This document shows, in pieces, positions 11,905-49,830 of a DNA stretch of 64,000 nucleotides. Position numbers and translations under genes: made by a program. This DNA comes from Paramacrobiotus metropolitanus (taxonomy: Eukaryota > Tardigrada > Eutardigrada > Parachela > Macrobiotidae). Under the pieces are notes generated by a model. The model was not told where the DNA came from and ran no database searches. It saw nothing but the letters and a program-made list of their open reading frames with translations. Where the stretch lies: NCBI RefSeq assembly GCF_019649055.1, contig NW_026570283.1, forward strand, positions 682,001 to 746,000, written 5' to 3'. Numbering within the stretch: the stretch's first letter is position 1; the number at the start of each line of letters is the position of its first letter.

Positions 11905-14900
11905 TCAGTCGAGGAAATAGGTCTTCAGGTCTCCTTTACCCTGTGCGAGCAAAATGTCTGAATCATGATAATATTTACTATTGGATTCTGCTGGAGATAT
12001 GTTTACCTTAACGAAGACGGTTCCACGACACGTGACCTTCAGTCCACTAGACTGGATCAAATTGGCGCTGTTCTCGCTCAGCTGGATGTGCCCGGCCACA
12101 CCCGTGGAGTCCATACGCGACGCATGGTTAACGGTGTCACCGAACCTAGGTTTGGCATCGAATCTTACATTGAGTACCGCATCGAATCGGCCAACGTCAA
12201 GCAGGCTTTCGCGTATTAGACATGAGTGGAAATGGAAATATTCACATATTTGGATTTGAATTAAGCTGAAGCTTTTATTAAAATCAAAATCACTAAAATC
12301 ACTTCACGTTACTAAAATCACTAAAATCACTAAAATCGTTATTAAAATCACTTTTGGAAACGAAAACCACGAACTTTACAGGAAATTGGAGAGAAATCAA
12401 TTCACAATTAATAAGAAAAATAACAGAGGAACGATCCGAACGTTTAATTTTAATCACCAGTACTTCGGCCGATTTCTATGTGCTGCAGAGACACTTACAA
12501 ACAGTAGCGAGGATTTTTGAAATGGAAATATTCACATATTTGGATTTGAATTAAGCTGAAGCTTTTATTAAAATCAAAATCACTAAAATCACTTCACGTT
12601 ACTAAAATCACTAAAATCACTAAAATCGTTATTAAAATCACTTTTGGAAACGAAAGCCACGAACTTTACAGGAAATTGGAGAGAAATCAATTCACAATTA
12701 ATAAGAAAAATAACGGAGGAACGATCCGAACGTTTAATTTTAATCACCAGTACTTCGGCCGATTTCTATGTGCTGCAGAGACACTTACAAACAGTAGCGA
12801 GGATTTTTATGGCCAACAATCCCGGCGGCAACGGATCCTAATGAAAGTAGACACTTATTAGCGGAACCGCTTAACTACAGTTGGCTTTTAAGCAAGACAT
12901 TGAATAACCGGTTAAGTACGGTCGGCTATTATTTTTCAATTAAATTGATAAGTGGATCTGTTGCCGCTGTACCTGAATGAACCCCGCAGCGGAAGAGGAT
13001 CTGTTCGTAACGGCACAGCTTCCCGAATAAGGCGCGGAATCGCAGTGTAACGTTGCAGATCTCTTCGCAGTGCCGGATGCCGTTGCGATTCGGAATTCCA
13101 CTGACGAGCTGCAACACAGAATACAATTTTGTTGAATGAAGGATGCCGTGAAAATTTTTTGTAAAACCTTATTTTATTTTTGAAGGATTTGTTTAATTAT
13201 TCAAAGGTCATTCTTGGTATCGCATAGATAATCATTTCTTAAGTTTTTCTTATTTTTCATAGTAATTTACCATGTAACTGCTGCCAATAGTTTCCATTTT
13301 GTAAGCATCGAAGCGCTGCAGAGCCGAATCAAATCCCGAGTACACTTTATCCAGGAGCTCAATAAAATTCCCTACGGTGCTCCGCATCAGCAGCGCTTCG
13401 TATCCGACGATAGAACAGAACGCAATCGTCACACTGTCGCATTCTTCCGGTGGAATCTCGTTGCCGGCTCGTAATTGTTCCAGAATTGGCCTAGTCATGC
13501 AACTCATAAAACTCCCTTGTAAGTTTGTAAAATTACAGTAAGGGTCACCTGGGAAACATCTCCTTCAGAACGGCATCGCACTTGTTCTTCTCGATTAGGT
13601 ATTCTTGGGTACGCTCCACCACCAACGCTTCTAGATGCAGATGGTAGGCCGCCAGGCGTTTCACGACGCGGTCAATGAGAGATGCCGCTGAGTCGATGTT
13701 CTCCTGATGTAATAGGCGGGTTATGGAGGATTTCACCTGGCTGACGGTGGGCCGCCATTCGGGTTCTTCGTTCCAGCATTGCCGGATTAATTGTAACAAT
13801 GAGGTTTCTTTCTGGCCCACAGTGGCGGCTGGAACGGGCGGCCGCCAGGGGGCACCGTCCAGGTGCTGCACTTTATTTACAGTTTCTGTAATGTGGCACT
13901 GTATTATTTCATTGCGTACGTGTTAAGACAGAAAAATTATTTACTAAAATTAGAAAACTAAACAGTAATCAGGAATTCAAAAGACAGTGGTTTAAAACAG
14001 CAAGGATGACCATTACAGAAATACTTCTTGAAAATTGCACTTTGTTTAGCAAAGCAAAACTTGCAGAAATAAACTTACCATAATAATATTTAAACATTAG
14101 TTATCTATGCGCTCATGTAAACTGAACTTTCGTATTATTAAAACATTTGCATCGGTTGATTTTTGATGTAACTTACCCAAGCTTTATTAATTCAATATTC
14201 GGAATTTTTGCCTTTTCATATCAGCTGGCAGAATTTGAGTTTGATATCAATGTTACACTCGAACTTCCTGTTTTCGAGATTTCTCAGTAACAAATGGAAA
14301 ATTAGCAGAAAATAATTATTAATTTTAAGAATGACTGAAAACAGGTCACGAAAAAAGCTGCGCCCCAGTGGCCGATTGTTGGCTAACTGGCAATTATCCA
14401 TTAAATTTGAAAACAGGTTAGGGAAAAAGCTTCCTCACCAGTAGCCGATTGTTGCGAAATCCCGGCGAGCGGTCCCAGTGCAAAAGGTCCGCTCTGGTAA
14501 AAAACCTCGTGCATGATGATGCCCAGAGCGTACACGTCAGTGGCGGCACCGCGGGGTTTGGTACGACGCAACACTTCCGGCGGACTCCATAGCGCTTTCC
14601 AGGGCGGTGGCACGGTGTCCCGTTGATCGGACGGTTTAAGCAGGGTTTTGATCCGGTCATTACTGAAATCGCCGATCCGCAGGGAGAAGAGCTTTGTGAA
14701 AAGACATTTTGTTGACCTTACATTTCCGTGGAATTGTAGCGGTGAGGTGTGGATATAATGGAGACCCTGTTTGAAAGCATTCCGCTGAGCTATTGTGCAG
14801 TGATGGTCGGAGAAAAAAGTTAATAACGTACCCGAATTAAATCGATGACGGCGGATATTTTCATATCGCGGTCCAGTGCGTGGTGCTCATCGGCGAACAC

Positions 14901-20245: not shown

Positions 20246-21226
20246 GAACGCAAAAGTTTAAATTTCAGCATGCGCGTTTAAGATAAATTACTGTGTGGAA
20301 AGGTGGCATGTTGTTATGAGCCTGGCTGCTGCCGTTCGTATCCGTTGAAAGTCCATGATTAGCGTAAAAAGAGTAAGAGTGGGCGGTATAATCAAACTTC
20401 ACAAACCAGGCATTCCGCTTGCTACTATCCTATGTCAATGCGTACGTGCCCAGGCGGTGCTGATGAGCAGGCATTTCATCCACGGTTAAAAAATGGTACA
20501 TTTCACCAACCGTGCTACCCGGCGGAAACGTAGCATTGGCACCGACAAGAAACCGGCCTTCCAAATCTTGCGTTTTCCCAGTGGGCAACAGACTGGCTAG
20601 CTGCGGATACTCAGTGACGTTGGAAGGCCGTCCATTACTCCTACACGCCACGCGACAACGACGATAGTGGGCTCGGAATTTTACTTCCTTTGGGCAAATA
20701 TGCCGAACTTGGCCGGAAACGGCCCCAAGCCATCACACGAAAAAAAAACAGAAATTTTTTACTGCGACAAGTGACACGAGTTAGCGTTGTAACATTCTCT
20801 AATTTATACCCTTCACATGAGCATCTAACCAAAACAGACCGAACACAACCAAAAGGGGCGTATCGTGTGTCGTAATACCCGGATTCCTTGGTCCCGCTGA
20901 ATCCGTCCCATTGCAACGCAACCAGCACGGCGCTTGCAAATCCACAGCCACTGCTTGGATGGAGCCAACGGGTGGAATCCGCGCGGCTGTCAGTAGATTT
21001 ATTTGACACTGCAAGGAACTGACAAACGGCTCGGTACTAACAGTTGCGGCTAGGCTGTACTCAGCGGCTATTTTGCTGACGCGGACGATCAGCTTCCGAA
21101 AATGGGCTTGTTCGCGCAGTTTGTCCAAATCCAGGCGATGCATTCTCATTGACATTATCACGAATTTGTCTCCGTCCCACTGCACAATGCTGGTAGGAGA
21201 TCGCAGTGGGGCCAGCGCATCAACCA
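20246..21226 (-). pseudogene. Collar-domain gene copy, 3' part (broken by a 10.7 kb insertion)
   Basis: Minus-strand similarity to the intact genes at 38730-40354 and 48207-49830 covers the end of their long exon. Recognisable pieces are GSIQAVAVDLQAPCWLRCNG, YPQLASLLPTGKTQDLEGRF, EMPAHQHRLG, and the terminal region near 20246-20330. The reading frame is not continuous (it shifts between the GSIQAVAVDL and YPQLASLL pieces), and the gene is interrupted at 21226 by the GC-rich element. It continues at 31966. It is a pseudogene of a host family. Confidence 0.8.
21120..21226. repeat. 107-bp direct repeat, left flank of GC-rich element
   Basis: Identical over all 107 bases to 31966-32072. The sequence is collar-gene coding sequence that should occur once, so it reads as a target-site duplication made when the element inserted. 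Confidence 0.92.
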
Positions 21227-21410
21227 AATACTGCGGCTATTTTGCCGCAGTATTTGCGGTAAAATAGCCTTTAGCTATTTTGCCGCACTATGGCCGGCAA
21301 AATAGCCATTCACTATTTTGCCGCACACTGCGTCACAATAGCCTTTAGCTATTTTGCCGCAGTATGACCGGTAAAATAGCCTTTTACTATTTTGCCGCAG
21401 ATTCCTGCTA
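21227..21410. repeat. Left terminal hairpin array of GC-rich element
   Basis: Four or five units of the form GCGGCAAAATAGC-N5-GCTATTTTGCCGC, or half of it, lie head to tail, separated by short CACT/AGTATG spacers. Each can fold as a stem with a 5-nt loop such as CTTTA. The array is the inverted counterpart of 31783-31965, so the element has terminal inverted repeats built from hairpins. Confidence 0.88.
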
Positions 21411-22439
21411 ATATTGAGAAAATCGACGTATTGACGTATGATGTGGTTGGGCTTGAGGAAGGAATAATTAAAGGAAGGAATGTTTTTTGTGTGAAAAAAT
21501 GTCGATATCCAAAAAAGGTAGTAAATTTTTTGTGTGGTGAAAAACTTAAAACTGCGTGGGTCAACAGGAAGCAGAAATAACACACAACAGTTTTTGAAAA
21601 TCTTGCTTTGGGATAGCGAAGAACACTGAATGCAAGGCTGCGCTCACTTCAGGCTGCATCTTTCAAAAATACTCTGTAAATTCTCTTTCTAATTTCTGAA
21701 AGTCGCCGTGTGACAGCAGGCGAACAAAGGATCACAATAGTGAGGAAAAGGCTTTATTGTGGATAGCAATAAAGTACAGAGAGCCAAAACACAGGCTCGA
21801 TGTGAGCGGTGTCATGAAAGTACAGTGAATGATACGCTAGTGAATAAGAATGAACGGCACATCGAGCCGTAACATGGGAAAAAGCCTAATGCGGCACTGG
21901 GCAGATCCAACACGAGCGAACGAACGCTGGTAGGCCGAGATGTAAAGCTGGGGCGTGGCTCCGCCTACATCGAGGCCGGTGGTTGGCCGAGACGTAAGGC
22001 TGGGCGGAAAGCTGCCTGAGTCGAGGCCGATCTGGCGTTCGACTGCGAGTGCGACTCGTTGTGAGTCAGCACACCGGAAGCGGGACTGTCGCTGGCTGCC
22101 TACTCGTAGGCTGCCATAGCGACTGGCCCAACATGCCTCTGGGCGGGAGTCCGAGCCCCTGCGAAGGACCGGCCTCATACCGCTCCAGTGCCCGCTCCGC
22201 ACACGACCCGTGGTGGCGATACAGCTCACGGCCGAAATCCGAAGGTCGGTCGATGTTGTTGTTGGACCGGTGTAGACGTCTGTTGATGGTATCCGTAACG
22301 GCGAAAAAGTAAAAAAATAAAGTGTTATTCCGTCTCTCTTGTAAAAATAAACATCACAATTCCTGGTGAGCAGGTTAGAAAAGATCTAATAGAATGAGAA
22401 CATCATTTCGAGATTAAAAAGTAAACTGGTCATTTTAAT
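21411..22439. other. Left shoulder of GC-rich element, no recognised gene
   Basis: 21411-21830 is AT-rich and has no motif that I recognise. From about 21839 the composition turns GC-rich. A 130-codon minus-strand frame (21837-22229) is arginine- and serine-rich with no family signature and may be chance. Short direct repeats occur around 21925-22025, for example 'aggccgagatgtaaagctggg' against 'ggccgagacgtaaggctgggc'. Confidence 0.4.
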
Positions 22440-25400
22440 CTTTGGTCTTTGGTCCGGGTGCTTATTCCGACTAGAGCCGGTCCGCTCACGGGGGCTCCAA
22501 TCCACTGGACGTCCGGTCATCCGGGTCCGAGGCATCAGTTCTCGGGATACCCATGGTACCGGTTCACTTCACCAAGGGTCGAAGGTTCGACCCTATTAGC
22601 TTCGGTTAAAGAGTATGGATCTTCGTTGTCGGGTGCGAAATGGGCATGAAATACACTTTCCCGCCGGTGATCCTCCGGTAAAATTCTGCCTGGAACCATC
22701 ATAGCCGGTCTACTAGTCATGTTTTTGTCCTTGCATGAGCTACATCTCGCCATTGGCGCCTTGTGCTGCATCTGGCTGAGGTTCCGGGTCCGAGTCTTGA
22801 TGACAAGACTGGCCCAACATGCTCTGGCGGGAGTCCGCTTGATGCTGGAGATATCCACGGGGTGACTAGCAAGAATCATGCAAAAGAGGCTCCTCGACGG
22901 CTGTATAGGAGCTAATTGGGTCCAAGCCGTGAGGTAGACACTCTAGGTTTTAAAGACGAAATCCGTACCGATCCGTTCCTCGGCTGATCCCGTGCTTTCA
23001 CATAGGCGGAAACACCCGGGATGCCGGAATGATGCATCCTGTCTTAGTCATCGGGGAACACAGTACATTCTGGCCGGTTCACACCGTGGGATTTTCACGG
23101 GAGGTCCGTTTCTGGATCTTATCCGGGCAATCCAGCTGGTCTAGCTAGGGCAAGAGGCTTAATAAGCCTATTGTCGTAGTTATAGGCATCCGTAGCCTCC
23201 GTTGGGGGTACAGTCATGTCGGACGTGGAGGAATGCATATAAACTGGTCTAGTTAACACGTATTCACCCGTGTGCCCTGATGTCCTAGAACATCCTTCCA
23301 GTGACCACGGTCCAATTCGCGGGTGAATGGTCATGCCGGTCACTCCCACCTTTCACCCGCTCCGTGAGTTGAGGGAAGGTGTGAGCGTGCCCTAATGTCC
23401 CACTTCGTCCGTTCTGGAGATGGAATGGAGGCCAATTGGGCCTCGGTGGGCATCTTTGCCGAGTTAGAGCCCATGATTAGCCACGGTCCTCGGTGGGCTT
23501 CCATGGTGAGGTAGAGATCGTGGTTATACCGCGGTCTGCGATGGTCTGCATCCTCCGAGGGTCCTTCTGCCGGAGGGATAGGCCGGTGGAGCGAAGCGTA
23601 TCACGCCGCGCAGCACCGTCCCGTCGCTTTTCGTACAACGGATTCCGCCGGAGTTATGCTCCCGAGGCCTATTGGGCTTTCTTACTGACTTCGGTTAAAC
23701 GTTTGTCAGCCAGCTATTACTCCGATTCCCGGGGTGTCCATGGGTCTGTTGGTAAACATGGTGAAGAAGGCGGCAGTGACGTCTTCGGCACCATGTTAGG
23801 GGAATCCTCTTGGGATGAGTTACGGAAATTAGTCATACGGGTTCGCTGACCGAGGAGGTATCACTTTCAAGGTCAACGTAATCCATACTCGGTTGAAGGA
23901 TGAGAGCCTATTGGGCTCTGAAGGTCGAAGTTATGGAACTTTGATTCCACCGGGGTCCTTCTGCCGGTCGGGTTTAAACAGAGGGACCCAGCAGATTGTG
24001 CTGGGAGCCCCTGGTGAACCTCCTTTCGTACGAAGGGTTCGATGATTAGGCCATCACCCGGGGTTCATCGTTATAGGGCTAATTGCTTCCTAAGACGACA
24101 AGGTCCGGGCTGGTAGGATCCAAGGGTGAGTCCTGCGGGTCCGGGGTTAAGGAGAAGTTGCTTCAGAAACTCCCGTGATCCGCATTCCGGTGACCGATAA
24201 GAGCCTACTGGGCTCTGTGGTCGAAGTTATGGACCGATCGGCCGGGATTCCTCTGTCAGAGGGACCTGAGCAAGGACAACTGTGTTTCGCGCAGTTGTGC
24301 TTGTTCGGTCGCTATTCGTACGATTCGTCCCGATGCGACGTTCCATGGTTTATGGTGATATTCGACCCTTCTAATCCGAGGGTCGAGGGTTAGACGTCGG
24401 GGTATCCCTATTAGGGCCTACTCCCTAAGTCGATGGTGGGTCGGGATTCTACCACGGCCTATGATGTTCCCTTTTAGCTCCGGGGATAGCAGGTCGGCGG
24501 AGTCGCTCATTCAGCTGAAGCCAGCTAACCGTCGGGGGTCGGCTGACCCTTTAGTTCGGTTGCATACCCTCGCTGCTTGGCTCGGTTCGCCTCCTGTCAT
24601 TGTCGCCGGAGACCGGAACGTTCTGTCCGGTTCATCCAGGGGAAACCAGGGGAAACATCCGGTACGGTTCGGGTTGAACTCGTACTTGTCGGGTCTATCC
24701 GAGGGATCCATCCAGGGTTCGGTTCCAGGCTCTTCTGTCGGAGTGGGTTGTCGGTGCAAAACGGTTGATGACGCTGTATTGCGCCGACAAACCGCCTTTC
24801 GTACGAGAGTCCGGACTTGCGTGGTTTGGGAGGTTTCTCTTCCAGAGCTACGGTGGTCCGAGGGTTGCCGGTCCGGTTATCCCATGCTGACGACGAGGTC
24901 TAAGTTCTGCCTCGGTCGTCCGCAGGGGATCAGGCTCCGCTAACTTTTGCGGCCGATTGGGCACCTTCCCTGGAACCTATTAGGTACACGTGGAAGTTAT
25001 TGAAGATTAAATTAGCCCTGGGCACGGAAATTCATAAGCCATATTCAACTTCGCTTCAAACCGTCCATTTCCGGAGGGTAATGCGCGGCCATATCGCTTG
25101 AGGACGTATATCTTCCCGAAATGATGTGGTCCGGAGGGTAAGGTCCATATTTTTGCGTGCCTGGCCAGAGTGGTCAGGTCCCTAGTCGGCCAAACCTCCC
25201 CTGGCCAGGGCCTAATGGTTCATTAGGCCTAGCTGGGCACTTACCTCGGAACCTATTGGTTTCACAAGGTAGCTATTCAGCCTTTCATAGGGTAAAGTCC
25301 GGTCAGGTCCACTTCTTTGGACTCTGTCTTTCGATCCGAGGTTTCTTTGGTATTTCCGTTCCCGCGATATAGGTAATGTTGCTTCCCGCATCGGAGGGAC

Positions 25401-26130
25401 GGAACTTAGAATTTCATCCACAGGTGGAGGCCTATTGGGCCTCATACCCCGGGGCCTTTAGGGTCCGGTGAGGTATTGAACGGTCCGTCCATGTTGATGG
25501 CCTGATTGTGATTAACCCTCAGTTTGCAGGTTGCTTGATCATGGCAGCGTCGTGGTTAAGCACGGTCTGCACTTTATCGCTGAGATCACCACGGACAGCC
25601 GTACTTGTGGCTGACTCTATAACTTTTTGATGGTAGCAGAATGTGGTTAAGGCTGCGATCTGCAGAATGATGGGGGTTGGCTCGGGTAAAGGTTATATTC
25701 CGGGCCGTTTGGACGAAATACAGGGTGAATTATACCGCCGTATCCCTTATTGAGGGTCCGGCCGGGTAGCAGATGTGATTAGCGAGCGCAATCTGCGGGC
25801 TTTACCTCCGTATCCCTTTTTGAGGGTCCGGTTAGGTTGCCAGCCGAGGTTGTTTTTCAGCTAAGTCCGCTTGAAAGGTCCGTCTATATTGGGGACGTCG
25901 CAGTGGCCAAGCTGGTAGCATATCGTGGTTCAAACTACGAAGTGGTCGGCCGGCGACCTGCGGCTTTTCAGACTGGGTTTCATCCAGGGTATACGTCTCT
26001 ATTGGAGACGTCATCATGTCCATTCGACCGGTTTGACGGTTAGCTTAACCCTATTGGGGTCCGGCTACCGGTCTCTTTTATTCCAGGTCCACGTTGACCG
26101 GGGCTCGACCACCAAAGTGAGAGCCTTCCA
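22440..26130. ncRNA. Hairpin-rich tract with constant TATTG loops (possible structured RNA or ssDNA)
   Basis: Short perfect stems enclose a TATTG-type loop again and again, while the stem sequence changes. Examples: 23428-23444 (GAGGCC/GGCCTC, loop AATTG); 23903-23919 and 24200-24216 (AGAGCC/GGCTCT, loops TATTG and TACTG); 24406-24416 (CCC/GGG, TATTA); 25427-25443 (GAGGCC/GGCCTC); 25744-25756 (CCCT/AGGG); 25993-26011 (ACGTCTC/GAGACGT); 26048-26060 (ACCC/GGGT). Other phrases also recur, such as 'ggtcgaagttatgga' (about 23926 and 24221), 'cctttcgtacga' (about 24021 and 24799) and 'ggtccggagggtaa' (about 25070 and 25130). ORFs here are short and on both strands. A constant loop with complementary variable stems points to selected structure, not to a simple repeat. 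Function and transcribed strand are unknown. Confidence 0.5.
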
Positions 26131-26446
26131 AGTCATCGTCTTTATCCCGTTCCCGTCGTTCTGGGTGGTTCGAGGATGTAGCCTCCTTGGTGCAGGTTGA
26201 CTGCGTCTCCGAGGCTTCCTGTCTAGGCTTCTCGGCTTTGGTTCGGCGGGCCTCGCGTCTTCGGCGGTTCCTGCCCGAGGATGATGAACCGGGCCACAAA
26301 TTGTACCTGTACGAGGACTTGCCCTCGGGCATCGGTGGTGAAGTGAACCCGGGCGGCAAGTGGCGATGGGTCCGGCACCATTCGGAGAGGGTTGAAGCCT
26401 CCTCCACATCTTTTTCGTCGTCTAGGTGGTACTGGTACTCCTTGTG

Positions 26447-26941
26447 CTATCGCTCTGCCGTCAGTAAGAAGTCACGCAGCCATAATCCCTCCACTGTATC
26501 CCTCATTGGTGCGCTGAACAGAGCCACCGCTGTCCGAAGTCGAGGCGGAATGTTGTTATTCCGGTACGCGCAGTACAGGGTGTAATGGCTGTGGTGGTGG
26601 CCAAATCGAGCCGCAAAAATCAGTCGCAAAGCCGTTTGGAATGTGATCGGAGCGTCTCCCAGGGCTTCTGGTTCGATCGTCCCAAGGTATTCGGGTAAGC
26701 TGTGGGCCGCTCTGGCTGCAGTGATCAACATGGCTGCTTGTGCCTCGGTGAGTACGAACTGCGCAACCCATTCCGTGTGATCCGTGAACTCTCGTTCGGA
26801 GGTGTACAGCGGGAGCTGACTCAGTTGGGACCAATCACGTCGTTCAAGTGGCAGTCCCAAGGTTGCCGGGTCGGTTGCACTAGGCAAGCCGTTCGTCCGA
26901 TAGTACGGGAATCCGATGCCGTAAGCTAACCGATCATGCAT
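26447..26941 (-). CDS. Unrecognised ORF in GC-rich element (164 aa)
   Basis: Opens with ATG at 26941. The product has GIGFPYY near its start, a helical alanine-rich middle (FVLTEAQAAMLITAARAAHS) and a tyrosine/histidine stretch (HHHSHYTLYCAYRNN). It resembles no family I know. It lies on the same strand as, and close to, other ORFs of the element, and its composition looks protein-like. GC-rich DNA produces long chance frames, so coding is only possible. Confidence 0.35.
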   Translation of the reverse strand: MHDRLAYGIGFPYYRTNGLPSATDPATLGLPLERRDWSQLSQLPLYTSEREFTDHTEWVAQFVLTEAQAAMLITAARAAHSLPEYLGTIEPEALGDAPITFQTALRLIFAARFGHHHSHYTLYCAYRNNNIPPRLRTAVALFSAPMRDTVEGLWLRDFLLTAER

Positions 26942-26959
26942 TTGAAAATCCTCGGACCA

Positions 26960-27319
26960 TTACCGATGCTCGATCATCTGCTGATATCCGGAGTGTTCGA
27001 GGAAAATTCGAAGGTCGTTGACCAGGTGCCACACTTGATTCCGTCGGTCTTCCCGGTAGTGCATAGTACCCATGATATAGTTTGTTTGTTCCGTGGGGTG
27101 TAGGATTTCGACCGCGATGCCCTGTCGGCGTGCATGGTCATACCGAGGGTCATGCTGGCTTGGCACTACCAGGTCCGGGTCAGGTATTGGACGCTGTGGG
27201 ACTGGCAACTCGTCCAGTTGCTCCAAAGGTGGAGGTGGTCGCGGGGCTTGGTGTCGAGCCACCTGATGTCGAACTACAGGCTGGGTGAAGTTACGTCGGG
27301 ATTTGCTGTTAAAGTCCAC
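26960..27319 (-). CDS. Unrecognised ORF in GC-rich element (about 119 aa, no ATG at frame start)
   Basis: A minus-strand frame ending 18 bp before the next ORF. It has a proline-rich segment (APRPPPPLEQLDELPVPQ) and then a more ordered part (HYREDRRNQVWHLVNDLRIF). It does not begin with ATG, so it may be an internal exon, part of a longer product, or chance. No family recognised. Confidence 0.3.
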   Translation of the reverse strand: MDFNSKSRRNFTQPVVRHQVARHQAPRPPPPLEQLDELPVPQRPIPDPDLVVPSQHDPRYDHARRQGIAVEILHPTEQTNYIMGTMHYREDRRNQVWHLVNDLRIFLEHSGYQQMIEHR

Positions 27320-27814
27320 GACGAGCCCATTATCCTCCGATCCGGTTGTTGCGCGGTGGTAGACCTATGTTGGGCCTCCAACTTCCGTCGCAAATCGCTT
27401 TCCAGCCTATGGCGTAAATCGCCAGGTGCCAAGTCCGACACGCTCTGGGTTGTTCGGTTAGACGGAGTGGACCCTGTTGGGGTCACTACTGCCGTCGCCG
27501 GTTGTTCTGCTGATCGAACCACTGGTTGAACCGACGGCTGTAGGGGTAGGCTGCCCGGTTGTTGGGGTAAGCCACCTTCTTGTGGGGCTACCTGCTGCTA
27601 TTCCACTTGCCTTTGCGGAATTGTCACAGAGGCTTTCGTTGGGCGGGGATCGATGATTTGGGCCATATATTGCTGGCCATCAGGTCCGGTAAGTGTCACC
27701 GTCATCCCACTAAGTGGTCTCGGGCCTGCCTGTAATGCATCCGAAATGGTCGGCAGGTTCGGTGTCCGGTCTGGACCTTGTACTTCCGCAATGGCGTTGA
27801 TGGGTGCCGAGGGC

Positions 27815-28276
27815 TCATCCGGTAAACCTGTTGGGTTCCACCGTGAGCCTAGCATGTGAGGTGCCGGCTACGCCCAAGGGCGAGGGTTTGTCCACCTTCT
27901 GGCGTGTACGCTCATCGTATTCGCGTTGGGCCTTAGCGATCCTTCGGTCGGCTGCCTCTGCCTGTCGGCGATCATTTTCACGTTTCTGCTCCCGTCGTTG
28001 TTCACGCGCATAGACCAGTCGAGCATTATCCGGGACTGCTGGGGTGTTGTCCCAGCCGGGTTCGTGGGTGCGTCTTCGGTAACGTTGCATGTCCCACATC
28101 TGGAGCAATTCCCGGCCTTCCAGCTCGTCAAAGATTCTGCTGTTATGGACCACGTGCATATAGGCGCTCAAGTGCCCTGTAACAACCTGGAGGTACAGGG
28201 TCATTAGGTTGATCTCGTCGTGAGACTCTGTGCTCCCCGGCCTGTCTGTCCAAATGTCATAACAGGCAATATGCAC
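27815..28276 (-). CDS. Unrecognised ORF in GC-rich element (about 153 aa, no ATG at frame start)
   Basis: A minus-strand frame with an ordered N-terminal part (DEINLMTLYLQVVTGHLSAY) followed by a strongly charged, probably coiled-coil stretch (REQRREQKRENDRRQAEAAD). The charge pattern looks like real protein. No ATG opens the frame and I recognise no family. Confidence 0.33.
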   Translation of the reverse strand: MHIACYDIWTDRPGSTESHDEINLMTLYLQVVTGHLSAYMHVVHNSRIFDELEGRELLQMWDMQRYRRRTHEPGWDNTPAVPDNARLVYAREQRREQKRENDRRQAEAADRRIAKAQREYDERTRQKVDKPSPLGVAGTSHARLTVEPNRFTG

Positions 28277-28601
28277 ACCGTTGACGTGTCCGAGGGGAGT
28301 TATTGTTGGCTCGGCACGTCTGGCAATCCGGGTTATAGGGTTCCGTCCGAGACTGAGGCTGTGGTTAGAAACACTTAACTTAATATTGTTAAGTTATTTT
28401 TGTTTTAAACCTTTGGGTCTCTACGTAAACCTATTAAGTTAAACGCGTTCTATGGTTAGATGTGAGCTTAAACGGTCGGGTACGGTCAGGTCCTGTCCGA
28501 TCATCTTCTTTCTCGCCTGTTGGGCAAGAGAAACATTCCCATTGCGGAGGTTATAGGGTTTCGCCTATTGGACAAGGAACCTCCGGTGATGTCCTACCGT
28601 T

Positions 28602-29090
28602 TTAGCTCTTCTTCTTCGGCAAGTTAGCCGGGTTGGACGATTTTGCCCGCGCTAACCGCTTCTGGCTTTTCGTCTCAGCCGGTGCGGGGGTCTTGACTGG
28701 GCTGGCCGAGCTAGCCCGCGTCTTTGGCAGGTGCTCTCCGAAGTCTTCAGGTAGGTAGAAGACGGAGAAGGGCTGTCCGGGATTCCTATAGGCTTCACTC
28801 GATCCAAGGACTTTCTGCCGGCAGGCTTGCTCCAGGACGTACTCCAGCTCGTCGTCCAAATGGTACAAGTTGCTCTCCTTTCTTCGAACCGGTCGATACC
28901 GTGCGTCTTCCAATTGGGGTTGGGCGGACATTAGGATGAACTCGAACCGACCTATCAGGTGGCTCGCGATTTCCCGGCGGGTTAATCCTTCCGGGTGCCG
29001 ATCTGTCCGCAAGCAGACGATCACTGCGTCCCGCCATCCAAGATAAGTCTTCAGTGCTGGGTCTGTTCTGCCCTCGGGAAAACATAGCAA
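28602..29090 (-). CDS. Unrecognised ORF in GC-rich element (about 162 aa, basic C-terminus)
   Basis: The minus-strand product has an ordered segment that could form a winged-helix-like fold (GLTRREIASHLIGRFEFI, then DDELEYVLEQACRQKVLG). A lysine/alanine/serine-rich basic tail follows (ending NPANLPKKKS). It overlaps the next upstream ORF by 40 nt in another frame, and its frame does not open with ATG. DNA binding is a guess from the helix pattern and basic tail. Confidence 0.38.
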   Translation of the reverse strand: MLCFPEGRTDPALKTYLGWRDAVIVCLRTDRHPEGLTRREIASHLIGRFEFILMSAQPQLEDARYRPVRRKESNLYHLDDELEYVLEQACRQKVLGSSEAYRNPGQPFSVFYLPEDFGEHLPKTRASSASPVKTPAPAETKSQKRLARAKSSNPANLPKKKS

Positions 29091-30334
29091 ACCCGTTCGG
29101 TCTTGGTATACACCCGGAGGATGGCACCAGTCTCGTACGCCATCCGACAGTAGATTTTCACCCTGTCCAAGCTGAGGTCATACCAGCTTCCGTCCTTGTC
29201 GACACGCCAATGCTTCAGCAGCTGGTAAGTCAGTTCCGGGGTTGTATAGGTTGGGCCCGACCAGGACAGCGACCTGAGTGCAGCATGAGCATGCACCCAT
29301 CCTGCATCGGTGTCAGAGATCTGAGGCTTCGGTCTGGACGCCCGCATGGTCGCCGGTTGCTTCGGCTGGGGAGTCCGTATGATGGGCTGAGGTGGGGTCT
29401 CCCGGGGCAAGACTTCCGCTGTGTCTTCGTGCCACTTCATAAGTAGCTGGTCGGCCGGAGGGCTCGGGGTCCTTTGGTCGAAAAGGCCCGATGCTTGTTG
29501 TTCGGAAGGGACTTTCGATCCCGTCTCTTCCACCGGATCGCCCGGGTCGTCTGCCGGAGGTTGTTCCTGATTATCTGGTTCGTCCTCCGGTTTTCGATGT
29601 TCGGGTACCGCTGTTGGCTGCTTCCCTTTTCCGTCTTCATTTTCATCATCATCGCCGTCCGTGTCGTCGGATTTGTCTGAGTCTTGATCTGACTTGGCAT
29701 CCTTATCGTCGTCCTCTTCCGAGGAGGGTTCTTCTTCCTCCTCCAGGGACTGAGCGATTCGCGATGTCCAACCCTTGTCCTTGCGCTTCTTAGTTGAAGA
29801 CCGGCCCCTTGTTGAGGTTCCGGCCTGCGAAGACGACAAGTCCATGGGTGACAGGGGTTGAGATCCCGGAGGGGCTGACTGTGTGTCTTTGACAAATTTG
29901 CCTCTCCTATCCCGGGCCGAATGCCTACCGCGTTTACTGCCGGAATCTTGGTCGGCAGTAGCGTAGACCTTCGGGTCGCCCGGGGCTCTTGGCTGTTCCA
30001 GGGGAAACCTGCTGCCGGAGGAGGCTGCCGTTGATCTAGCCAGCTCCAGCCATACTCTGGCTTGGGGCGCAGGATCCTCTGCTGGTCTTATCTGAGTATC
30101 GTTGCCATCTCGATCAAGTCTCTTTGAATGGATGTAGGATATCCGGAGCTTCTGTTCTCTCCGGTTCCGTTCTGGGATGAAGTTCGGCACGGTGTACCGA
30201 AGATAACGTCCGCGCTGCGCATTGGTAGTCTGCAGCTCTCTTCGTTCCACCATCGCCTTGAGGATAGGGTTTATATCCTTCATGATGTCCTCAATCTCGG
30301 CCTCTCCCTTAAGTTTGTCGCCGAAAGTATACAT
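29051..30334 (-). CDS. Unrecognised ORF in GC-rich element (427 aa, acidic low-complexity centre)
   Basis: This is the longest frame in the window outside retroelements and spliced genes, opening with ATG at 30334. It has an ordered N-terminal part (EIEDIMKDINPILKAMVERR) and a middle rich in Ser, Pro, Lys and Arg. A long acidic run of Glu, Asp and Ser lies at about residues 198-245. A C-terminal segment (YTTPELTYQLLKHWRVDKDG) again looks winged-helix-like. Acidic low-complexity plus basic segments suggest a nucleic-acid- or chromatin-associated protein. No known family recognised. It overlaps both neighbouring minus-strand ORFs by 26-40 nt in different frames. Confidence 0.5.
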   Translation of the reverse strand: MYTFGDKLKGEAEIEDIMKDINPILKAMVERRELQTTNAQRGRYLRYTVPNFIPERNRREQKLRISYIHSKRLDRDGNDTQIRPAEDPAPQARVWLELARSTAASSGSRFPLEQPRAPGDPKVYATADQDSGSKRGRHSARDRRGKFVKDTQSAPPGSQPLSPMDLSSSQAGTSTRGRSSTKKRKDKGWTSRIAQSLEEEEEPSSEEDDDKDAKSDQDSDKSDDTDGDDDENEDGKGKQPTAVPEHRKPEDEPDNQEQPPADDPGDPVEETGSKVPSEQQASGLFDQRTPSPPADQLLMKWHEDTAEVLPRETPPQPIIRTPQPKQPATMRASRPKPQISDTDAGWVHAHAALRSLSWSGPTYTTPELTYQLLKHWRVDKDGSWYDLSLDRVKIYCRMAYETGAILRVYTKTERVCYVFPRAEQTQH

Positions 30335-30998
30335 TTTGTTGAGGGACCGGGCGATTTGGAGGCGGGTGGAACCTCTTGGGTTCCGATAATAGCCAATGGC
30401 CCGAACTATCCGTTCCTACCGGTGTCTCTTGCTGGCGTAACTTGGCCGGTGGCTTCGGGAGCACTGGTTCGCCCATTCGGTCCCAGGATCGGTGGAGTAC
30501 GAAGGCCAGGCATTCGTACTGGATCCAGGTAACTATCTTCCGCATAAATTGAGCCGTAAGGAAGTGTCCTTCTTTCACCTCATATTCTTCGGTGAGTTTC
30601 TCCACCAACGTCTGGTAGACATCCTTACGCTCCATATCAGCCGTGGCGATGCTCCGCCGGACATCTTCTTTGAAGGTTGCCTTGGGGAACGCTGGTTCCG
30701 CCTCCGAGGGTCGTCTGTCCGCCAGCCTATTTCGGAGGTTGTCCGGGGCCGGCAGGTCAGACTCATCGGTATCGACGTGGTAATCCCAAAGTTCTTCCTG
30801 GAGACCCTCGGCTAAATGTTTGGCCGAGCCGGGTTCCAGCTGGTCCGACTCATTAAGCTTCCGCTTGACTGGGGTATCCTCCATGTTGATCTCCGGGGAG
30901 GCCGACCCCAGTTGTGCTAAGTCACGGTCCCTTTGTCGGATGTTTTTGACCATCTGCTGGAGGAATGGCGGTAATGGAGTCTTCTTGTGGCTCCTCAT
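30309..30998 (-). CDS. Unrecognised ORF in GC-rich element (229 aa)
   Basis: Opens with ATG at 30998. It is a charged N-terminal half (KTPLPPFLQQMVKNIRQRDR) followed by an ordered helical segment (DVYQTLVEKLTEEYEVKEGH) ending in WIQYECLAFVLHRSW, then a proline-rich tail. It is the upstream member of the run of overlapping minus-strand ORFs. I do not recognise it; the ordered segment could be another small helix-turn-helix-type fold. Confidence 0.42.
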   Translation of the reverse strand: MRSHKKTPLPPFLQQMVKNIRQRDRDLAQLGSASPEINMEDTPVKRKLNESDQLEPGSAKHLAEGLQEELWDYHVDTDESDLPAPDNLRNRLADRRPSEAEPAFPKATFKEDVRRSIATADMERKDVYQTLVEKLTEEYEVKEGHFLTAQFMRKIVTWIQYECLAFVLHRSWDRMGEPVLPKPPAKLRQQETPVGTDSSGHWLLSEPKRFHPPPNRPVPQQNVYFRRQT

Positions 30999-31091
30999 TC
31001 TCTCGCTTCACCTTGGGTACCTCGTTTGGAGGATTCCCTTCGGCCCAGTTCCGAATTTCGTCGATCCGGTTGTCGACACTCTGGCCAGGTT

Positions 31092-31415
31092 TCAGCTCAG
31101 GCCTAGGCCCCCGGTTCTTGTCGGGTTCCTGTCGGCTCGATGCGGACTCTGACTCACTGTCCGAGGATGGTAGCTCGGGTCGGACCCTTCTTCGGGTTCT
31201 ATCCTGGCGAACTTCACGTCCGAGACATCGGTATCTCCGCCGCCACGGGGTTTCTTGGGCAGTCGGTTCGGAGAGTCCTTCTTTGAGGCCGATTTCTTAG
31301 CCTCACGCTTCTTCCGTACCGTAATAGAATTAGCCGAGTGGATTACCGTGCCGCTGAATGTCGGCATCGGCTCATCTTCTATTTCCACAGATGGTTTCCA
31401 GAGACCGGCTGCCAC
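31092..31415 (-). CDS. Unrecognised small ORF in GC-rich element (about 107 aa)
   Basis: Lysine/arginine-rich product (KKREAKKSASKKDSPNRLPK) with a proline- and serine-rich end. It is on the same strand and immediately upstream of the 229-aa frame. It resembles a basic nuclear-localisation type of sequence, but low complexity limits any inference. Confidence 0.28.
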   Translation of the reverse strand: MAAGLWKPSVEIEDEPMPTFSGTVIHSANSITVRKKREAKKSASKKDSPNRLPKKPRGGGDTDVSDVKFARIEPEEGSDPSYHPRTVSQSPHRADRNPTRTGGLGLS

Positions 31416-31782
31416 AGACTGCCACAGGTCATTTTCTTGACCGTTTCTACACTTCCATTTTAAATATTTTTTTGTGCTATATAACGAAGTTTTGCTTTTG
31501 CGTAATTAGTCTTGCAATTCCTCACAGATTTAAACGTTTTTATGCTGTGGACTGTCCATGTGCATTGGCGTTGGCAAGCGACACAGTCACTGCCACAGAC
31601 ATATGGTTAGCACAAGCTCCCCTTTTTTAAAAAAATTCCCTTTTTCAATTCAATTTTTTTGCGATATTCGCACTCCTTCGGGTACCGCCCGCTGGAAGGT
31701 TCAGGCATCAGCTCAAATCCAACACAAAATGTAGCTCTAGAGTCTAGATGGCCGTTCCCTTAACTGTGGCAAATTAGATGCG

Positions 31783-31965
31783 ACCAAAAGTGCGGCAAAA
31801 TAGCGAAAGGCTGTTTAAACGCAGTGTGTGGTAAAATAGCAAATGGCTATTTTGCCTACCATACTGCGGCAAAATAGCTAAAGGCTATTTTGACGCAGTG
31901 TGCGGTAAAATAGCAAAAGGCTATTTTGCCGCACTGGGAAAAAATGCGGCAAAATAGCCTTAGCC
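31783..31965. repeat. Right terminal hairpin array of GC-rich element
   Basis: Tandem units such as TGCGGCAAAATAGC-N5-GCTATTTTGCCGCA, inverted relative to 21227-21410 and in matching order, including the shared 'cactgcgtca' spacer. It ends where the second 107-bp direct repeat starts. Confidence 0.88.
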
Positions 31966-32072
31966 TTTGTCCAAATCCAGGCGATGCATTCTCATTGACA
32001 TTATCACGAATTTGTCTCCGTCCCACTGCACAATGCTGGTAGGAGATCGCAGTGGGGCCAGCGCATCAACCA
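31966..32072. repeat. 107-bp direct repeat, right flank of GC-rich element
   Basis: Identical to 21120-21226. The collar-gene similarity continues without a gap into 32073 and beyond, as expected for a target-site duplication. Confidence 0.92.
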
Positions 32073-32502
32073 CCGATTGCGGAAGATTTCCGGCCACAAC
32101 ATTTGTACAGTTGCCTCTTAGCTCTTTCTCCAGCCATTTATTGCCGTCGTGAATAGATTTTTATAATGTTTTACTTCTGCATCCGGGCGATGACCGGGCT
32201 CTGGCCAATATGTCGCTTCCCACATGGCGTGGTTATGGTCTCCAGTCGACGTGACGTTTAAGCAAAAGCCGGGAACAGCAGCGGCAGCTGCTGCACAAAC
32301 TGTTCGTGATCGATGAAGTCGTCTGATTCCAAAATGGCATCGAGACTGTTGGTTAGCAGTAACTTAGCACCTGCTGCACCAGCGTCGCATAGCCTTTTTG
32401 GCGGAGGAAGACAAAACTTGCAAACCGATCGTTCAGCGTGCAGAAGAAAGTTGAGTCGGTCAAATGGTTACGATCGATGTTGACGGTAATTTTCCGAGAA
32501 TA

Positions 32503-33236
32503 GATTGTGTTCGCAAGCACAAAAAGGCTTACGATATACGGTACGATATACGATAGGCTCTTCTACGTCATCACGGTGTACCCTTACCGGACCGTTTGAC
32601 GGTAGGATCGACGGTAGAAGGCCGAGATATCGTAATGCCTACCGTTGGCGTCTGCGATATAGCAACCACCCTCAGTGGCAGTGGCATGAAGCACAACGTT
32701 TGCAGCTGCCAAATCATGAAACTTTAAAATTGTTCTGGCAGATTTTACTTATACTTGATTCAATAGAAAAGAATATTAGAAGAAAGATAAAATTCTAAGG
32801 AATTTTTTGATACCAAGCGAGTGCAGTTTATCTAAAAATGAATGAATCTGCAACCATCTGAATTTAGCATGCCAAGCTTACGGAGCCGTTGGAGTTCTCT
32901 GCGCGAGCTGTCATTTAAAGTCCATAGGCGCCTGTATTAAAATTAAAATGCTCGTAAACAGATTCATGGGCTCTTAAATCTGGATGTTTTGGTATCAAAA
33001 AATAGTTTAGAATTTTAGTTTTCATCGAGTTTACAATTGAACGATTGTTACCATCTGCCAAAGCCTTAAAACTTGTTTGAACCGCTGCATGCTTCACGTC
33101 AGAGGCAGGATTGGACCGTATCGTTTACCGTCTGCGCGTTGCGATCACTCTAACTTGTCAACGGTACAGTCACGATACGGTGTCCCAGCGTATCGTATAC
33201 CGGACCGTCTATCGTTCGTGTGTAGCGAACACAATC
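32503..33236. mobile_element. Non-autonomous TA-target MITE in collar pseudogene
   Basis: The ends GATTGTGTTCGC and GCGAACACAATC are perfect 12-bp inverted repeats flanked by TA on both sides (32501-32502 and 33237-33238). Longer imperfect inverted arms rich in 'cgatatacggta'-like phrases lie inside, and an AT-rich interior has no transposase. The collar-gene reading continues on each side, so the insertion point is clear. The TA target suggests a Tc1/mariner-type source. Confidence 0.8.
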
Positions 33237-38729: not shown

Positions 38730-40354
38730 TCAGCAGGCGCGTATAAGATAAATTACAGCCTGATAAGGAGGCATGTTGTTATGTGCCTGGTTACCGCCGG
38801 TTGCATGAGTAAATAGCTGGTCAAAAGCTGTTACTACATAGAAACCAGATTGACCGTTGTGGCCGCCGTAGTAAACGAAGACCAAGTCTTTAGGAACTGG
38901 TTGGTGATTCCATGCCATAGAGTGCCAGGATTGATGATGCTGATGGGAAGGCATTTCATTAACGGTCAAAAGATGTGCCTTTTCCCCGCCTCTACTGCCA
39001 GAGGCCATAGACGCATCAGAGCCCACAAGGAACTGACCTTCCAGATTCGGTGTTCTTCCACTGGGCAACAAGTTGGCCAGCTGGGGATACGTGCTGATGT
39101 TAAATGCCTGTCCATTGCAGCGCAACCAGCATGCCTTCTGTAAATCCACAGCCACTGCTTGGATGGAACCAACGGGGGCATCCGCAGCATCCAGTAATTT
39201 GATTTGATCCTGCACTGTGGCTTTCAAAACATTTACTTGATGCTGCAAGGAACTGGTCAGCGGTACAGAGCTAATACCGGCCGCCAAACTGTAATCGGCT
39301 TGACGTTTACTTGCACGGATAGCCAGCGTCCGGAAGTGGTCTTGTTCTCGCAGTCGTTGCAAATCCAAGCAGTACATTGCAACGTCCGAATGGTGGCCTT
39401 TCTCTGGCCGGTATGTTGCCTGCCACATGGCCGGTGTGAAATGTATGGTTGACGTGATGTTCTTGCGAAAAGCCGGCAGCAGTCGCGTCAACTGCTCTTC
39501 GAACTGTTCGTGATCGACGAATTCATCCGCTTCCAAAGCAGCATCGAGACTGTTGGTCAACACTTGATGCAACAATTGCGAATAATCTTCCTTGCGGAGA
39601 AAGACATAACCGGTAAACTGCTCGAGAATTGTACGGAAACTCAGTGTGTCTTGCAAGTGGATTTTGTTGACATCGACGTTGACCTTACGCGGATGTGTAC
39701 TCGGTAAAGTGTATGCAAAATGCAGAAGGACGGTAGCAGTTGCAGCGGTCCCGTTTTTTATGGCACGTTGCGCCTCAGTACAGGCGACACTCGTAGAGCA
39801 GCGGATTCGAAAGATCAGAGTTTGCGGGAGGTTGGTAATCGCTTGCCAAGATGTACGAGCGTGGTGACTACCAACAGAGTATTCCACGTGCATCCAATGA
39901 AAAGGCAGTTGAAGAATTTCGCTTTTCTCGTTTCCCGTTTTCTTGATAACATAATTGCTTATCTGTTTCACGAAATCATCATCCCACATTTGTAATGTTA
40001 GCCCGAAGTAAGACGCGTCTACGGTTTGGTCATATATCACTTGAGTTGAATCGGACAGTAGAGTGGCCATGGGTACAAAGAAGAAGGTAGGGTCAGCGGA
40101 GTCCAGAGTCTTGCGAAAAATACCAATCTGCCGGCCATCGTACGGCACCGAGAAGGTTAGGGATGATAGGTTGACGAATGGTGTAATTACGAAAAATTCT
40201 TTAATCCGTGTGTCAGTTAATTACCAATACTCAGTAGTATACTGCAGACTTTGTAAAAAATGGTTATACAATTCGAAATGCGGACTGCACCTTTAGTATG
40301 TATCGGCGCTGAAAGCAGCTTCAAAAGCAACGTTATCCACCGTAGCGAAGCCAT
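38730..40354 (-). CDS. Secreted collar-domain protein, copy 1 (510 aa, two exons)
   Basis: Exon 1, 40354-40291 (64 nt), encodes a signal peptide (MASLRWITLLLKLLSAP); exon 2 is 40198-38730. The phase-1 junction joins in frame, giving 1533 nt. The N-terminal 330 residues belong to no family I know: PYDGRQIGIF, LTLQMWDDDF, a cysteine pair in RIRCSTSVACTEAQ, FLRKEDYSQLLHQVLTNSLD, and a short coiled-coil-like helix (SLQHQVNVLKATVQDQIK). The C-terminal 150 residues match the phage tail collar pattern: GSIQAVAVDL, CWLRCNGQAFN, YPQLANLLPSGRTPNLEGQF, LTVNEMPSHQHHQS, NQAHNNMPPYQAVIYLIRAC. It is probably an extracellular protein; substrate or partner unknown. The intron position, phase and exon-1 length equal those of the copy at 48207-49830. 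The spliced signal-peptide exon shows that it is an animal gene, not a contaminant. Confidence 0.88.
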
Positions 40355-48206: not shown

Positions 48207-49830
48207 TCAGCAGGCGCGCACCAGAAAAATTACTGCGTGGTAAGGAGGCATATTGTTATGAGCCTGGTTTCCGCCCCTTGCATCTGTTACTACATTATCC
48301 TCCGGCTTTGAAAAGTAGTAACCATGACGATTTCTGCTATAGTAATGATTGGTCCAGTCATAGAACTTCGACGTGTCCATACTCCATCCTGCCGAGCTCC
48401 AGGCTTGTCGGTGGTTATGAGAGGGCATTTCATGAATTGTTAGATAGTGTTCCTTTTCTCCACCGGTGCTGCCAACAGGCATCGTCCAATCGGCATTCAC
48501 CAAAAATCGACCCTCCAAATTGGGGGTTCTTCCCGTGGGCAACAGGCTGGCCAGCTGCTGGTATACGGTAACGTCAAACGCCTGCCCATTGCATCGTAAC
48601 CAACACAGCGATTGCATATCCACGGCCACCGCCTGGATGGAACCAATAGGTGTTAGTTGATTCTGCATTGCGGCTTCCAAACGATTTACTTGATGCTGCA
48701 GAGAACTGGTCAGCGGTGCAGAGCTAACACCGGCCGCCATGCTGTAGTCGACGTGGAGTTTGCTAGCACGGACGGACAGCGTCAAGAAATGGGCTTGTTC
48801 AAGTAGTCGGTTCAAATCCAGGCAGTACATTGCGACGTCCGGTTGTTGATGTGTCCCCGGCCAGTACGTCGCCTGCCACATGGCTGCAGTGAACTGTGTG
48901 GATGACGTAATATTCTTGCGAATGACCGGCATCAGCTGCGCCAGGTGCTCCAGATACTGCTCGTAGTCGACGTATTCATCTAATTCCAGAGCAATGTTAA
49001 GACAATTGGTTAACATCTGATGTAGCAAAGCTGAATAATCTTCCTTGCGGAGGAAGACGTATCCCGCAAACTCCTTAATAACTGCCCGGAAAATCGGCGC
49101 GTCTTGCAGGTGCATTTTATTAACATCGACCCTGAGTTGTCGCGGATTTACACTTGGCAGGTTGAATGCAAAATGCAGGTGCACGGTGAAGGTTGTACCG
49201 GTGCCATTTCGTAAGCTACGTTGCGCTTCGGTGCAATCAGCACCGGTTGAGCAGCGGATGCGGAAGACCAGAGTTTGTGGTAGATTGGTTATTGGCTGCC
49301 AGGATGTGCGAGCATGGTAACTGCCGACAGAATACTCCACGTGCATCCACAGAAAGGGCAATGGAAAAACCCGCACCGTTTCGGTTCCGGTCTCCTTCTT
49401 TATATAGTTCTTGACCTGCTGCACAAAATCGTCATCCCACATTTTTATCGTCAATTCCAAGTAGTACGAGTCGATGATGTTGTCATATATCACTTCCGTC
49501 GAATCGGACAGCAGCGTCGCCATGGGTGCGAAGAAGAAGGTGGGATCTGCTGTGTTGGATGCCGCCCGGAAGATTCCGATCTGCCGGCCATCGTATGGCA
49601 CCGTGAAGGTTGGCGAGGACACGTCGACAACTGCTGCAATCACAAAAAGCCCTCGGCTACATGTTCAAGTTACACATGACCGCTCGTGGCACTAATTTTC
49701 TTTAGAATTGCAAAAATTACAGTATGTTGTTACGTCTACAGATTTCAGTAAATTTAAGAGCTGCACCTGTAGGGAAAACTGGCACTGTTACAAGCGCCAA
49801 AATCAGCAACATCAGATGTAGTGATGCCAT
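48207..49830 (-). CDS. Secreted collar-domain protein, copy 2 (496 aa, two exons)
   Basis: Exon 1 is 49830-49767 (64 nt, signal peptide MASLHLMLLILALVTVPVFP); exon 2 is 49633-48207. The spliced length is 1491 nt. It aligns over its whole length with copy 1: VPYDGRQIGIFRAAS, LTIKMWDDDFVQQVKNYIKK, RIRCSTGADCTEAQ, FLRKEDYSALLHQMLTN, then the coiled-coil-like SLQHQVNRLEAAMQNQ. The tail-collar-like domain follows, with GSIQAVAVDM, CWLRCNGQAF, GRTPNLEGRFLV, IHEMPSHNHRQ and GGNQAHNNMPPYHAVI. In phages the collar domain sits at tail-fibre attachment; here it ends a secreted animal protein of unknown role, perhaps carbohydrate or surface binding. The frame is intact and spliced, so it is likely functional. 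Confidence 0.9.

Follow-up and report, generated by a model that had tools for sequence, protein, structure and literature searches.

A large insert in the genome of the tardigrade Paramacrobiotus metropolitanus is very probably a Mutator/foldback-type transposon enclosing a fragment of a giant retrotransposon

Four described systems are close to the locus reported here. Tm1, a Mutator/Foldback family of root-knot nematodes, has inverted terminal arrays that are composite and vary in length, carries short motifs at its termini, and comprises non-autonomous copies alongside an element bearing a MULE-type transposase; 45 of 53 elements carry target duplications of 8-10 bp, and 9 bp is typical (PMC3169594). 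The planarian Burro elements are long terminal repeat (LTR) retrotransposons that exceed 30 kb in total length, with as much as 25 kb of internal region; they contain very large accessory coding regions besides those for protease, reverse transcriptase (RT), RNase H and integrase (PMC6431247). Animal Pack-TIRs are terminal inverted repeat (TIR) elements that enclose foreign sequence, and their origin by gap filling has been reported (PMC8277862). Finally, fold-back at double-strand breaks leaves short templated inverted insertions, including polymerase theta scars (PMC11724301, PMC4912351). Here, we describe a 10,739-bp insert in a 64,000-nucleotide stretch of DNA (the window: contig 63, 682001-746000, of the 169.8-Mb Paramacrobiotus metropolitanus assembly).

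The insert (21227-31965) is bounded by direct repeats that are identical at 107 of 107 positions. It terminates in inverted arrays whose hairpin units measure 36-38 bp (21236-21400 and 31790-31933), and its terminal arms, 107 nt each, are 87% complementary. The guanine-cytosine (GC) content is 0.55 in 21709-31394 vs. 0.43 in the window without the insert and its repeats, while the two end segments that carry the arrays are AT-rich, at 0.415 and 0.417, and resemble the surroundings. Because of these AT-rich ends, the GC-rich stretch is narrower than the insert, and its combination with ends that resemble the surroundings points to two superimposed elements. We consider it very probable that the insert consists of two nested transposons, an outer Mutator/foldback-type element and an inner LTR retrotransposon fragment, the junctions being known from the assembled sequence alone. 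The identical repeats, the inverted hairpin arrays and the GC-richer core had all been noted in a preliminary description of this DNA, and all three hold, the last within 21709-31394. It had further suggested a new large mobile element or captured extrachromosomal DNA. The insert is a mobile-element insertion, but of a MULE-type family with ordinary 9-bp duplications and not of a new element type, and the core is a retrotransposon fragment from the same genome and not captured extrachromosomal DNA.

The outer element is identified by its sequence as a member of a many-copy Mutator/foldback-type DNA transposon family. Genome searches with the end sequences, in which the best 40 of 253 (left) and 40 of 274 (right) candidates were scored, gave at least 90 matches for the left end and at least 87 for the right. 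The 14-mer of the array unit, GCTATTTTGCCGCA, occurs 607 times in the genome (309 + 298) and its reversed control once (0 + 1), and the unit is thus far from chance. Those array matches for which a partner was evident on their own contig were paired into 25 copies, including the window copy, with spans of ~2.9 to 29 kb. With up to two substitutions allowed, canonical termini are found at both ends of all 24 other copies, CGAAGTGGCTATTTT at one end and AAAATAGCC(T/A)TAGCC at the other. An exact 9-bp target duplication lies directly at the termini in 15 of these 24, compared to 0 of 552 mismatched pairings, and no exact duplication of any other length from 6 to 12 bp is present at the termini of the 24. 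The preliminary description had reasoned that copies with the same ends, at different sites and with long duplications of their own, would establish a mobile family; copies with the same ends are indeed many and occupy other sites, but none of the 24 has a long duplication.

A candidate source of transposase is the outer-family copy on contig 41, which has an exact 9-bp duplication and encloses at least three open reading frames (ORFs). One matches the Pfam MULE and ZSWIM1-3 RNaseH-like models above cut-off, a neighbouring ORF gives weak sub-threshold FAR1 and ZSWIM3 N-terminal matches, and the third has no domain match. Relatives of this transposase, 75% identical, lie on contig 1 at ~463k and ~899k and are flanked by inverted array groups (448.2k/469.9k and 885.5k/905.7k), a placement read from the array positions. 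Further close relatives are found on contigs 27, 31 and 149, array flanking having been compared for the contig-1 copies only. The MULE transposase encoded by other copies would move the outer family, leaving 9-bp duplications, and the window copy would be a non-autonomous member that inserted into a host gene. Several observations weigh against this assignment: 9 of the 24 other copies have no exact 9-bp duplication (2 to 7 of the 9 positions match), a MULE match is seen in a single one of the 25 paired copies (contig 41), and no transposase is recognised among the 10 ORFs scanned in the window copy.

Among the systems compared, Tm1 is the closest in anatomy to the outer family, as it shares the composite variable-length arrays, the short terminal motifs, the 9-bp duplications, and the coexistence of non-autonomous copies with an element encoding a MULE-type protein. 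The two differ in array unit and host, and in the transposase, which is of ZSWIM1-3 type with a weak FAR1-like N-terminus in the outer family and of Phantom type with a FLYWCH finger in Tm1. The 2.9-29-kb span of the outer-family copies, some of which hold other elements, is likewise unlike Tm1 as described there (PMC3169594). Within the family, the contig-46 copy holds an LTR-like segment (L088, 913-1168) that is 73% similar and belongs to the same retrotransposon group as the core of the window insert, in opposite orientation, and the contig-58 copy (L037) has an ORF that by eye resembles the RT of a different retrotransposon. In the right subterminal part of the window copy, 31427-31700 matches at least 35 other places at ~70-77%, perhaps a related transposon family.

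The state of the site before insertion is represented by a paralog on contig 31. It aligns at 70.7%, in one unbroken alignment, to 20907-21119, a single copy of the 107-bp repeat and 32073-32416, i.e. to the joined empty site, and a single copy is therefore the original state. The unbroken paralog bears out the earlier statement that the insert interrupts a gene. On the basis of a motif, we take the gene to be tail-collar-like, with the Pfam model Gp10_C matching only below the cut-off (E 0.089).

The 107-bp repeat sets the window copy apart from its family. In flanks of up to 300 nt, the best match between the two sides scores 107 in the window copy and 7 to 12 elsewhere, so that a long flank duplication is found in 1 of 25 copies; the window copy carries it in place of a 9-bp duplication, and its left terminus is damaged. 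Among the 25 copies compared, the long repeat is confined to this one, and it is not the target duplication that characterizes the outer family. It has the appearance of a scar from a single DNA-repair event, as opposed to the hallmark of a new element type. The right junction is canonical, with ...AAAATAGCCTTAGCC followed directly by TTTGTCCAA. At the left terminus, the last 6 bp of the canonical end, CGAAGT, are missing and AATACTGC stands in their place, which is the inverse complement of 21247-21254. Between this 8-nt copy and its template lie GGC and GCC, separated by a loop of 6 nt. The predicted fold-back copy equals the 8 nt observed, continued copying would also yield CA, the end of the flank (a 2-nt match), and the chance of an exact 8-nt match at a fixed place is ~1.5e-5 by arithmetic estimate. 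We infer fold-back end repair at this junction. It resembles fold-back inverted insertions and polymerase theta scars in its short templated inverted insertion, and differs from them in being inferred from the sequence of one natural junction (PMC11724301, PMC4912351).

In the order of events that we favour, a normal insertion with a 9-bp duplication would have come first, and the left terminus of the window copy would later have been broken. The broken 3′ end, shortened by 6 nt, may have paired with itself at GGC/GCC and been extended by copying 8 nt. The flank would have been extended ~98 nt past the 9-bp duplication, with the empty allele or the sister chromatid as template (9 + 98 = 107 bp), and the folded-back end may then have been joined to it via the 2-nt match. 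This succession of 9-bp insertion, left break, ~98-nt flank extension and end joining is, in our judgement, moderately probable. What tells against it is that insertion in one step, with a stagger of 107 nt, yields the same flanks, the repair route being read from sequence alone. In such an aberrant insertion, the right end would be normal, the second strand would be cut ~107 nt off, the overhangs filled and the left end joined by end joining. In its favour, the right end is canonical and the left end carries end-joining features. It requires a stagger ~12 times the usual one, however, and a long duplication is absent from all 24 copies with which the window copy was compared; we regard it as unlikely.

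Two broader alternatives fare much worse than the repair history favoured here. The exact 107-bp repeat at this locus could be taken to mark a mobile element of a new class that regularly duplicates ~100 bp of its target, but the outer family duplicates 9 bp at 15 of 24 other sites and the left terminus of the window copy is damaged, which makes such a class exceedingly improbable. An assembly artefact joining unrelated sequences is conceivable in that the junctions come from the assembly; it is nonetheless very improbable, since the outer and inner layers each match many loci of the same genome and the boundaries, an LTR start and a canonical right terminus, are biologically meaningful. Other candidates were rejected outright. 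No Polinton/Maverick or viral domain is present in the scanned ORFs, the core being an LTR retrotransposon fragment. A LINE-type insertion is countered by transposon arrays at both ends and by the absence of an RT match in the 10 ORFs scanned. In addition, the window has no Rfam match at gathering score that would indicate a known structured RNA, and no tRNA was found that would suggest a tRNA-linked insertion.

Judged by its matches, the GC-rich core derives from an LTR retrotransposon of ~31 kb with the gene order of Ty3/gypsy, of which it represents the broken 3′ third. In a genome search in which the best 20 of 595 candidates were scored, the window's own place not among them, 21709-31394 has long matches, at roughly 80-86%, to ~20 other loci; terminal arrays of the outer family are found in none of 28 pieces from these loci. 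In the three left flanks compared (contigs 73, 22 and 4), similarity begins at window position 21709, and the sequence from this point opens with TGTGACAG, the start of an LTR of ~425 bp. Foreign DNA brought in by misassembly is an unlikely source of the core, since a single further copy in this genome aligns with 9,190 of its 9,686 bases. A bacterial contaminant, which the preliminary description had allowed for, was likewise rejected, given the ~20 matching loci in the tardigrade genome. That description had also recognised no polymerase: this is so for the window fragment, which stops before pol, but not for the source retrotransposon, which encodes RT.

An LTR genome search (best 40 of 302 candidates scored) identified, among the matches listed, LTR pairs in four copies, with the second LTR 26-31 kb away. 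The pairs are identical at 426/426 and 426/426 positions, 98.6% and 99.1%, the LTR ends are TG...CA, and a 4-bp target duplication is present at three of the four pairs. The copies measure 31,286 bp (contig 73), 31,727 bp (contig 50), 29,420 bp (contig 68) and 26,693 bp (contig 1). On the minus strand, the contig-73 copy encodes, in order, an ORF that weakly matches coiled-coil-type models, a 225-aa ORF, a 771-aa Pro/Gln-rich ORF, a protease-RT-RNase H frame, an integrase ORF, a ~3,009-aa ORF and a second 771-aa ORF unlike the first, followed by the 3′ region and the LTR. This copy was read piecewise outside 290001-292679; for the ~3,009-aa ORF and the protease-RT frame, lengths are calculated from the positions of adjacent pieces. 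The order protease-RT-RNase H-integrase, from pieces searched apart, matches Ty3/gypsy, an assignment based on gene order and similarity matches. No gag match was obtained in the contig-73 ORF pieces upstream of protease, the 2.7 kb beside the 5′ LTR lying outside the search.

Comparison among copies shows the ~3,009-aa and ~771-aa accessory ORFs to be under purifying selection. The ratio of nonsynonymous to synonymous substitution rates (dN/dS) is 0.09-0.17 for the 771-aa accessory ORF (15 pairs) and 0.04-0.13 for the giant ORF (6 pairs of 1,000-residue pieces). The latter range refers to aligned codons only, as the alignment of the four giant-ORF pieces (mean column identity 71% over 1,373 columns) does not run over their full length. 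Pfam scans of pieces of both ORFs gave nothing above cut-off. A protein search with both gave no relative among the 8,000 scored candidates that had most words in common with the query, the giant ORF being queried as a 1,565-aa piece, with full-length relatives of ~3,000 aa outside the length range. A search of solved structures returned one chance-level match for one accessory ORF and none for the other. Winged-helix repeats, suspected by eye in the giant ORF, received no support from three segments. In LTR retrotransposons, the position after the integrase is the usual site of an envelope gene. The contig-68 copy (L085) is without ~1.8 kb that holds the integrase domains in contig 73 (L083); its LTRs are nevertheless identical (426/426), which suggests recent movement with the help of another copy. 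In the window, recurring short phrases are apparent by eye in 22134-26080.

The giant tardigrade element and Burro are alike in structure as ~30-kb LTR retrotransposons in which very large accessory coding regions accompany protease, RT, RNase H and integrase. With LTRs of only ~425 bp, the internal region of the tardigrade element is ~30 kb, compared to up to 25 kb in Burro, and its giant ORF lies downstream of the integrase and has no recognised domain, a difference from Burro as described (PMC6431247). Taken together, there is fair reason to think that the core derives from a recently active tardigrade LTR retrotransposon of ~31 kb, whose ~30-kb internal region exceeds the 25 kb quoted for Burro and which encodes two selected accessory proteins of unknown kind after the integrase.

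The retrotransposon fragment may have inserted into the outer element and then been truncated, or it may have been taken up as filler; insertion followed by deletion and capture as filler both fit the observed structure. The left edge of the fragment is the exact LTR start and adjoins a piece of another dispersed repeat (21455-21708). The right edge (31394) falls within a coding region, and 32 bp separate it from the sequence of the outer family. Capture by the outer element, with fragment and flanking repeat acquired as filler in a Pack-TIR-like manner, would account for the stop within the coding region and for the piece of another dispersed repeat (21493-21708) directly beside the LTR, and an origin by gap filling is reported for animal Pack-TIRs (PMC8277862). 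The same structure would result, however, from Ty3 insertion and later deletion, and a convincing source locus is not found among the repeat matches listed. The only partial case, an LTR on contig 59, has weak similarity across the repeat/LTR junction for ~34 nt that does not extend further into the repeat, and was set aside as unconvincing. We consider capture possible but tentative. The window insert resembles Pack-TIRs in being a TIR element around foreign sequence, and differs in that this sequence is a retrotransposon fragment for which nested insertion is also possible (PMC8277862).

Table 1. Coordinates of the insert, its two layers and the flanking host gene in the window.
Feature	Position	Strand	Basis
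Part of interrupted host gene	20265-21119	-	Contig-31 paralog aligned piecewise and over the joined empty site
107-bp direct repeat, left copy	21120-21226	.	Identical to 31966-32072; single in contig-31 paralog
8 nt at left junction	21227-21234	+	Exact inverted copy of 21247-21254; replaces canonical CGAAGT
Left terminal array, outer element	21235-21400	+	Hairpin units; matches to other copies
Left subterminal, outer family	21401-21492	+	Matches contigs 1, 46, 78, 111 and 274 to ~21488-21496
Dispersed-repeat stretch	21493-21708	.	Part of repeat 21455-21708; best matches end 0-12 bp before LTR start
3′ LTR, inner retrotransposon	21709-22133	-	TG...CA; ~90-91% to contig-73 LTRs
Long 3′ region without large ORF	22134-26080	-	Core matches; ORF positions in other copies
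Broken remnant of ~771-aa accessory ORF, several frames	26081-28364	-	tblastn with intact contig-73 ORF
Broken C-terminal remnant of ~3,009-aa ORF, several frames	28605-31397	-	DNA match stops at 31394
32 bp assigned to neither element	31395-31426	.	Between the core match and the outer-family sequence
Right subterminal, outer family	31427-31789	+	Family matches; ~72% resemblance to high-copy repeat
Right terminal array	31790-31965	+	Canonical terminus ...AAAATAGCCTTAGCC
107-bp direct repeat, right copy	31966-32072	.	Identical to 21120-21226
Further part of interrupted host gene	32073-32416	-	Contig-31 paralog alignment

Elsewhere in the window, another high-copy dispersed repeat begins in 32501-33000, a short way past the interrupted gene, with over 30 matches listed in the genome (the best at 99%). 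A near-perfect tandem duplication of a 290-bp unit (12229-12808, 99% match) contains internal 9-bp and 28-bp tandem units, and two long minus-strand open frames of 472 and 478 aa lie outside the insert at 38730-40148 and 48207-49643.

In the titles and opening lines of abstracts among the open-licence literature matches listed, neither family is described for Paramacrobiotus metropolitanus, and the consulted main text of a tardigrade repeat-curation paper does not name Paramacrobiotus (PMC11071193). With the 107-bp duplication tied to a single damaged end, the claim of a new transposition mechanism falls away, and the damaged left end may serve as a clearly readable case, from nature, of fold-back repair acting on the end of a transposon. 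The core would derive from an apparently undescribed giant LTR retrotransposon of a tardigrade, whose two accessory proteins are under selection and have no detected relatives, and an element of ~31 kb raises the question of how its RNA is copied and packaged.

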